Of a stretch of 46,550 nt of DNA, positions 42,170 through 44,479 are shown piece after piece; position 1 is the first letter of the stretch; every line of letters begins with the position of its first letter. This DNA comes from Nitrososphaerota archaeon (lineage in GTDB: Archaea; Thermoproteota; Nitrososphaeria; Nitrososphaerales; Nitrosopumilaceae). The notes under the pieces are model-generated. The model had not been told where the DNA came from. It ran no database searches and saw nothing but the letters and a program-made list of their open reading frames with translations. The stretch lies in contig JABDDN010000012.1 of the NCBI GenBank assembly GCA_013287585.1, positions 1 through 46,550 on the forward strand, in the 5' to 3' direction. Both the position numbers and the translations under genes were made by a program.

Positions 42170-43046
42170 ATGAAGATTGGAATATTTTCGCATTGTACTA
42201 TTGATGAAATTTCTAGAGATAGTACTACAGTTGAGACTGCTGGTGGACCAGCTTGTTATTGTGGATTGACTGCTAGGGCTCTCAAATTTGATGTAGAACT
42301 TCACACAAAAAATAGGACCTGATTTTGGATTTCGTGAATATTTAGAAAAAAATAAAATCATTATTCCACAAAACACCCTCTCACAAAATCCTACTACGAG
42401 ATTTTTATTAGAGATTTCTGGAACTGATAGGAACCTGTATTTGAAAACAAAATGTGATGAAATAGAATATGAAAAATCAGACGCGGATGGTTGTATAGTT
42501 AGTCCTGTATTTGATGAGATATCTGAAGAAACACTTGATAAAATAAAAGAAAATTCTGAATTTACATTACTTGATCCACAGGGTTTTCTGCGAAGAGTAG
42601 ATGAAAAAAATAAGATATTTCTTGAACGAACTAGTCTTGATCTCTCAAGAATATCTGCAATCAAAGTAGATCCTGAAGAGGCCTTTTCCCTTACAGGTTT
42701 GACGGAAACTAGCGCAATGTTGGCACTGCAAAAAAAAGGCGCAAAATACATCCTGTATACAAACAAGCGTGAAATTACACTACTTGCACGAGATAGACTA
42801 TACTATTTGACTATTCCAAATATCGAAGTTGGTGATACTACTGGAGTAGGTGATATTTTTTGTGCAACTTTTGCATGTACTTTTCTAAAAGAAAAAGATG
42901 TTTTATGGGCAATTTGTTTTGCTGTAGGAGCTGCACAAGCAGCACTTGAGACAAAAGAAACAGGACTTTCTAAGGTTCCATATCAAGGTGATATCGAAAA
43001 AAATGCCGCATACATGTACAACCAAGTAAAATTCAAGCACATCTAG
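42170..43046 (+). pseudogene. PfkB-family carbohydrate/nucleoside kinase with a frameshift
   Basis: Ribokinase-like kinase split in two frames. The first part, MKIGIFSHCTIDEISRD then TAGGPACYCGLTARALKF, carries the N-terminal substrate region. The second part carries the PfkB signature DTTGVGDIFCATFACTF with the catalytic Asp. The frames would join as HTK-IGPDFGF if the run of six A at 42307-42312 had five. The joined product is about 291 residues, normal for the family. Either a real one-base insertion or a homopolymer sequencing error. The start at 42170 is chosen because the frame upstream of it overlaps the microprotein gene at 42033. Substrate not deducible. Confidence 0.85.
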
Positions 43047-43486: not shown

Positions 43487-44479
43487 ATGCGAGTAGCAAT
43501 ATTTAGTCAAGATCAAGAGAGAACAGTAAAATCCGTAAAACTATCACTTGAAAGTCATGGCATAGAATCATTTCTACTTGGTAACAAACAACTTTCAAAA
43601 GATGTTGATTATGTGGTAGTTACTGGCGGCGATAGAGGAGTTAGGAATTATTTTCATCAAGACTTGAGTACTACTGTTCCAGTACTTGGTATAAATGAAT
43701 TTGAATCAAGCGGATATCTTGCACAGCTTGATTTAAAGGAATTTCCTACATTTCTAAATAGATTAAAAAAAACAGATTTTACAATAGAGCACGTTACACG
43801 TCTTGGTGTAAAAATTGACGGCAAAAGTGTTTATCCTGTACTAAATGACGTTGCAATATTTTCATCAAAGAGTGCGACACTGGTTGAACATGTATTACGA
43901 ATAAATGGTGAAGAAGTCTGGCATGACAGTAGCGACGGTGTTATTATAACAACGCCAATTGGTTCATCCGCATATTCAATGTCTGCGGGTGGACCAGCAA
44001 TATTTCAAGATTCCAAAGTTTTTGGAATTGTTTCAGTAAACTCATTAGATATTACAAGAAGGCCACTAATTGTGTCTGATGATAGTTCCATTGAAATTGA
44101 TGACATTTCATCTAGTCTTAGATGTGAAGTAGTCATGGATGGAAAGGATCGCTTCAAAGTAGATCAAATGGTTACATGTACAAAATTTCCAATACCTGCA
44201 AATATAATACGAATGAGGAAGGATTCTACTACTGTATCTGCATTAACAAGAAAGGTAAAGCTTGCAGATGATCTTCTAAACATGCCACCTAGCTCAAAAC
44301 TCTTGTTAAAGACATTAGAGTATGAGGGTTCATTGACTCAAAAAGAATTATCCACCAAAACACTTCTCCCAGATAGAACGGTAAGGCTTGCCTTACGTCA
44401 TCTGCTTGACAAAGGATATGTCAAAAGAAGGGTTTCATTACGAGATACGCGACAAAGAATTTACGAAATTCCAAAATAA
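43487..44479 (+). CDS. NAD-kinase-like domain fused to a C-terminal winged helix-turn-helix
   Basis: From the ATG at 43487 the protein has 330 residues; a TATA box near 43456-43463 supports this over the TTG at 43463. Residues 1-245 follow the NAD kinase fold: GGDR (47-50), GINEFESSGYL (68-78), NDVAIF (120-125), DGVIITTPIGSSAYSMSAGG (150-169), RRPLIV (191-196) and MDGKD (217-221). The ATP/NAD motif GGDGT is replaced by GGDRG, keeping D49. Residues about 268-330 form a MarR/TrmB-like winged helix (SLTQKELSTKTLLPDRTVRL, LLDKGYVKRRV). It may phosphorylate NAD, or may have become a transcription factor sensing NAD(P) or ATP. It abuts pyrG at the 3' end with no gap. Confidence 0.87.
   Translation: MRVAIFSQDQERTVKSVKLSLESHGIESFLLGNKQLSKDVDYVVVTGGDRGVRNYFHQDLSTTVPVLGINEFESSGYLAQLDLKEFPTFLNRLKKTDFTIEHVTRLGVKIDGKSVYPVLNDVAIFSSKSATLVEHVLRINGEEVWHDSSDGVIITTPIGSSAYSMSAGGPAIFQDSKVFGIVSVNSLDITRRPLIVSDDSSIEIDDISSSLRCEVVMDGKDRFKVDQMVTCTKFPIPANIIRMRKDSTTVSALTRKVKLADDLLNMPPSSKLLLKTLEYEGSLTQKELSTKTLLPDRTVRLALRHLLDKGYVKRRVSLRDTRQRIYEIPK

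Follow-up and report, generated by a model that had tools for sequence, protein, structure and literature searches.

A winged-helix protein derived from NAD kinase, a probable regulator of NAD biosynthesis in archaea

Organization of the fused gene

The DNA considered here, hereafter the window, is a stretch of 46,550 nucleotides from a MAG of a Nitrososphaerota archaeon. On its + strand, to which all feature coordinates below refer, a gene beginning with an ATG at 43487 and ending with its stop codon at 44479 (43487..44479) encodes a protein of 330 aa in which a NAD kinase (NADK)-like domain is fused to a winged helix. The gene is conserved in 49 order-level relatives. Its reading frame is kept at 40-98% identity in 45 relatives and is therefore not due to chance.

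An earlier note, made from the letters of the DNA, had described a NADK fold with a broken GGDG motif followed by a winged helix. This description is borne out by Pfam, by an AlphaFold2 model, by structure matches and by conservation. The NAD_kinase_C domain (PF20143) covers residues 119-228 (43841..44170; E value 1.1e-20, over the Pfam cut-off), and a weak Pfam match to the N-terminal NAD_kinase domain is found at residues 33-95 (5.8e-5; 23.8 bits for a cut-off of 25.5). With the NCBIfam NAD(+) kinase equivalog, the best score of the fused protein is 117.6 bits for a cut-off of 326, a value that the control genomes miss too, so that this large shortfall carries little weight. The model (pLDDT 85, pTM 0.77) has its best matches among solved NADKs (7qvs, E 9e-24 with Foldseek; 1suw, TM 0.83 by target length), compared with which it carries an additional C-terminal helical/winged part.

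Residues 47-50 (43625..43636) read GGDR, where active NAD kinases have GGDG; the Arg may, as the earlier note supposed, lie in the path of the ATP phosphates. GGDG is one of the three motifs common to all NAD kinases, GGDGT is found in 124 of 127 archaeal enzymes and, in active enzymes, the Asp of GGDG activates the 2'-hydroxyl of NAD (PMC8553519). This Asp, D49, is kept in all 49 aligned relatives, as had been claimed for the window's protein. Two other pairs, NE and ND, had also been listed as kept. The ND pair, N120-D121 (43844..43849), corresponds to the NE/D motif of NAD kinases (N in 49/49 relatives; D in 42 and E in 7), whereas the NE pair, at residues 70-71, does not represent that motif. 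Conserved region II, from D150 to G169 (DGV..TP.GS.AYSMSAGG; 43934..43993), is intact, with the majority of its positions invariant in the 49 relatives, and it is expected to be the NAD(P)-binding segment.

The C-terminal winged helix extends over residues 265-327 (44279..44467). It is defined by a Pfam match to HTH_24 (residues 272-313, 2.5e-5, over the cut-off) and by the model, where helices 268-280, 285-292 and 296-309 are followed by strands 313-316 and 324-327. The previous assignment to a MarR/TrmB type stands for the winged helix and not for the family, MarR_2 (24.7 for 27) and TrmB (21.2 for 25.6) being under their curated Pfam cut-offs and the generic HTH_24 alone passing. R297, T298, D320, R322 and Y326, a set which includes recognition-helix and wing residues, are invariant. 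Searches of the fused protein with Pfam and NCBIfam gave no match to a Nudix, a NMN adenylyltransferase or a RNam kinase domain.

In the window's family, the neighbours are a PfkB-like kinase gene, pyrG and trp genes, from which no functional clue emerges. The PfkB-like gene of the window (42173-43046) shows a frameshift near 42305, in an A-run, and continues in a second frame. The copy in the relative L094 is unbroken (291 aa), and the frameshift is probably an assembly or sequencing error.

Distribution, residue 50 and canonical NAD kinases

The fusion is found in 48 of the 61 genomes around the window. A phylum-wide search gave full-length relatives in many families of Thermoproteota. A scan of named genomes retrieved the fusion also in Nitrosopumilus, Nitrosopelagicus, Nitrososphaera and Vulcanisaeta, in a Thorarchaeota MAG, where the motif reads GSDR, and in a Diapherotrites MAG (L298), where GGDGT is retained together with the winged helix. 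In the 49 aligned order-level relatives, residue 50 is R (24), K (20), G (3) or S (2); in 39 scorable distant members, where the Asp is again invariant, it is R (26), K (6), S (3), G (3) or C (1). Altogether, Arg or Lys occupies the position in 76 of 88 members. The conservation of GGDR and of the winged helix, which the earlier note proposed to look for in thaumarchaea, is observed there and across Thermoproteota, the motif being GGD[RK].

In a quick tree of NADKs, from which the residue-50 columns were left out, the fused family forms one clade (SH-aLRT 91), as do canonical NADKs (99) and a third paralogue (100). Far from being peculiar to thaumarchaea, the fusion is thus a single clade across Thermoproteota, joined by the Thorarchaeota MAG and apart from canonical NADKs. 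The third NADK-like paralogue, seen in several order-level genomes (L077-L084), is about 265-285 aa long, has a DVYLERG motif and GGDG[FIVR], and is placed far from both the canonical and the fused proteins.

A second NADK, the search for which had also been proposed, does exist. In the window's own assembly, which is 77% complete, a fragment of a canonical NADK is present, truncated where contig C14 ends; all four genomes of the same genus have this enzyme intact, with GGDGT and a length of 276-278 aa. Among distant fusion-bearing genomes, 33 of 34 encode another NADK, separate and shorter. The cell thus does not depend on the fused protein for its NAD kinase, and the situation seen in the earlier note as unfavourable to a regulator, a single NADK in the genome, is not the one found. 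Since GGDG is lacking and any kinase activity is putative, the fused protein cannot, on its sequence, be filed as a NAD kinase.

These data bear on a model in which the fused protein would be a bifunctional, NadR-like enzyme regulating itself: it would still phosphorylate NAD, and its winged helix would control the NAD genes. Conservation of the catalytic Asp, of the NE/D motif and of region II is in line with this model, as are the Gly found at residue 50 in a few members and the Diapherotrites protein, which combines GGDGT with a winged helix inside a NAD gene cluster. On the other side, the predominance of Arg/Lys at residue 50, the generality of GGDG among NAD kinases and the nearly constant presence of a separate canonical NADK speak against it, and we consider it improbable. 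The self-regulating kinase already imagined in the earlier note keeps its value only for the GGDG minority, such as L298, where activity may persist; it does not suit the other members. In L298 itself, the fusion (L298:1743-2759) sits among nadC, nadE, nadD and nadB, and may represent a bifunctional kinase-regulator.

Neighbouring nad genes and a palindromic site

Among the neighbours of distant fusions, NadA, NadC and NadX were verified. Full-length nadA, the quinolinate synthase gene, directly adjoins the fusion in 10 of the 15 distant genomes having both, in five families. In L150, L151 and L154-L159, the fusion is divergent from a confirmed NadA gene, which is followed in most cases by NadC and NadX. 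In L174 and L176, the fusion is located just upstream of nadA, in the same direction. In the Thorarchaeota MAG (L295), nadA is divergent from the fusion, with GGCAACATTTGCC between the two. Where nadA is missing, a transporter often adjoins the fusion, either an MFS protein of the aromatic acid/H+ family, an ABC system or an amino-acid permease; such neighbours would fit a control of precursor uptake. The c18 neighbours were suspected to be nicotinamidases, an assignment that was not confirmed, every NCBIfam match being well under its cut-off.

Other features of these regions may be mentioned. In two f27 genomes, NadC and NadX form a single fused protein of 515 aa (L174:1689-3233 and L176:1906-3453; domains confirmed in L174). 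In another f27 genome (L178:4204-6418), a gene of 425 aa that resembles purB has in common with the fused gene both the intergenic region and a good site. In a MAG of the same genus as the window, nadA (L230, G002:C41:47759-48603) is broken into two overlapping matches, with an internal TGA.

The evidence for a regulon, that is nad linkage and operator, comes from relatives. No nadA was found in a search of the window's own genome, which is consistent with the incompleteness of this MAG. In the window's family, the upstream neighbour of nadA is nadX. In these relatives, nadA is preceded by a 13-bp palindrome, GGCAA-N3-TTGCC. With at least 9/10 matching positions, it occurs before nadA in 32 of 40 fusion-bearing genomes, to be compared with a mean of 0.43 and a maximum of 2 in dinucleotide shuffles; a perfect 10/10 palindrome is present in 21 of the 40 and in none of the shuffles. 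Two further genomes, missed by the script, have it as well. A spacer of 3 is clearly the best. In about 30 nadA promoters, the centre of the palindrome is located 52-53 bp upstream of a TATA-like TTTAAAT, although the intervening sequence varies. A genome contains only a few perfect palindromes; in two complete genomes, the one that precedes nadA is the only one.

Often, these promoters also contain a weaker, palindrome-like second site, 30-31 bp from the main one on its downstream side (L189, L218 and L230 are examples), a distance of about three helical turns. About 22 bp then separate it from the TATA box and, by our own count, the single site of L151 has this same position.

Whether the site follows the fused gene was examined with a matrix built from the nadA sites of the window's family and applied to distant loci outside the building set. 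Scores of at least 10 bits were obtained in 8 of 29 promoters divergent from the fused gene and in 0 of 292 other upstream regions (Fisher p=1.7e-9; Mann-Whitney p=6e-10, p-values which overstate the significance because related genomes are not independent). The matches include promoters of nadA, of an MFS transporter, of permeases and of an unrelated gene. This variety of divergent genes indicates that the site goes with the fused gene, whether or not its partner is nadA. Moreover, a site with at least 8/10 positions was found in 8 of 12 distant nadA promoters from genomes with the fusion, versus 1 of 10 from genomes without it. By a simple match count, comparison of the regions upstream of the fused gene with those of all neighbours was not significant; the signal became clear only after divergent neighbours had been separated from controls and the independent matrix used. 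Exceptions are f27 and f38, with a site that is weak, missing or not scorable, even though nadA adjoins the fusion in two f27 members. No clear palindrome was found in the promoter of the window's own fused gene. In L146, L154 and L108, sites are located at -27 from the start of the fused gene itself, which suggests autorepression in these lineages.

It may then be asked whether the fused protein is the factor that recognizes GGCAA-N3-TTGCC. It could be a regulator while the site belongs to another factor, a view to which G012 and G024 lend some weight since both have perfect sites and no detected fused gene; the completeness of the two MAGs is 93% and 77%. This division of roles is nevertheless very unlikely in our opinion, given that the site is mostly absent from genomes without the fusion and that distant lineages keep it in the intergenic region of the fused gene even beside a transporter (L146, L166, L168).

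A further possibility would be a NADK paralogue with an altered phosphoryl donor or substrate, for which the winged helix would serve as an interaction module and the linkage to nadA would be operon-like. Adjacency to nad genes would be equally expected of an enzyme of the NAD pathway and, in phosphofructokinases, the choice of donor is modified by changes at the equivalent position. However, the arrangement is mostly divergent rather than operonic, the site is found both in the intergenic region that is shared and upstream of distant nadA genes, and the recognition-helix and wing residues are invariant. Hence, we give this enzymatic model the least credit, and retain, as the probable reading, binding of the palindrome by the fused protein.

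A putative NAD(P)-sensing regulator

Taken together, these computational results, namely the second NADK, the conservation of GGD[RK] and of the winged helix, the linkage to nadA and the shared palindrome, strongly support the regulator reading of the earlier note. Very probably, the fused protein would be a transcription regulator of the one-component type, derived from a NADK and acting on NAD biosynthesis and uptake; its dead kinase domain would be the sensor, probably of NAD(P). In this domain, the GGDG phosphate-transfer loop would be lost, with the catalytic-site Asp, the NE/D pair and region II kept. Retention of the Asp and of the pocket, with the Gly of the loop replaced by Arg or Lys, suggests that NAD(P) binding persists without catalysis, and the basic residue at position 50 could contact the 2'-phosphate of NADP. 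The kinase domain would thus most likely serve for NAD(P)(H) sensing and for dimerization. A dimer is implied by the palindrome, and NADKs form dimers (PMC8553519). The winged helices of this dimer would bind GGCAA-N3-TTGCC. The main target in the window's family would be nadA; in distant lineages the gene of the regulator is divergent from nadA-nadC-nadX or, in the absence of nadA, from transporters.

The sign of the control may be discussed. Archaeal activators commonly bind upstream of the BRE/TATA elements, and repressors over or downstream of them. Because the sites lie upstream of the TATA box, we lean slightly towards activation of nadA when the cofactor is low, over repression.

Comparison with known systems highlights the specificities of this protein. 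From canonical NADK (PpnK; PF01513/PF20143), which it resembles by its fold, catalytic-site Asp, NE/D motif and region II, it differs by GxD[RK] in place of GGDG, by the added winged helix and by its separate clade. Functionally, the closest system is NrtR, in which a nucleotide enzyme has become the sensor and, joined to a winged helix, controls NAD genes; its scaffold is a Nudix one, unrelated to NADK, and it is named as bacterial (PMC12421817, PMC6800001). NadR of Salmonella and E. coli, which represses nadA, nadB and other genes (PMC12421817), likewise fuses a DNA-binding domain to an enzyme of the NAD pathway, but its HTH is N-terminal and it has NMN adenylyltransferase and RNam kinase domains and no NADK domain. 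NadQ and NiaR also regulate NAD synthesis or salvage genes, on scaffolds that differ from the present one; NadQ is Nudix-like and ATP-responsive and NiaR niacin-responsive (references in PMC12421817). By its predicted scaffold, the fused protein is thus none of NrtR, NadR, NiaR and NadQ. Four types of regulators are listed for the transcription of NAD synthesis genes, all of them repressors and all described from bacteria (PMC12421817). No description of an archaeal NADK-HTH regulator, or of an archaeal regulator of NAD synthesis, was found in the open-access literature searched, and novelty is accordingly provisional.

It is tempting to go further and, tentatively, to imagine a NAD(P) sensor-regulator that would be ancient in archaea, common to Thermoproteota and the Asgard group and issued from a converted NADK. 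Arg or Lys would read the 2'-phosphate of NADP(H), so that the product lodged in the dead active site would set the transcription of nadA, the probable mode being activation from a position upstream of the TATA box. The GGDGT fusions, as in Diapherotrites, would be a preserved bifunctional intermediate. We regard this whole scenario as possible, though the odds are somewhat against it.

NAD is a cofactor needed by every cell. For its control in ammonia-oxidising archaea, in other Thermoproteota and in one Asgard lineage, a concrete candidate is now available, with a gene, a site and a target. Annotation pipelines likely label the fused genes as NAD kinases, which would mislead metabolic models. 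If the proposed function is correct, the fused family would clearly illustrate how a metabolic enzyme can become a transcription factor that controls the pathway it came from.
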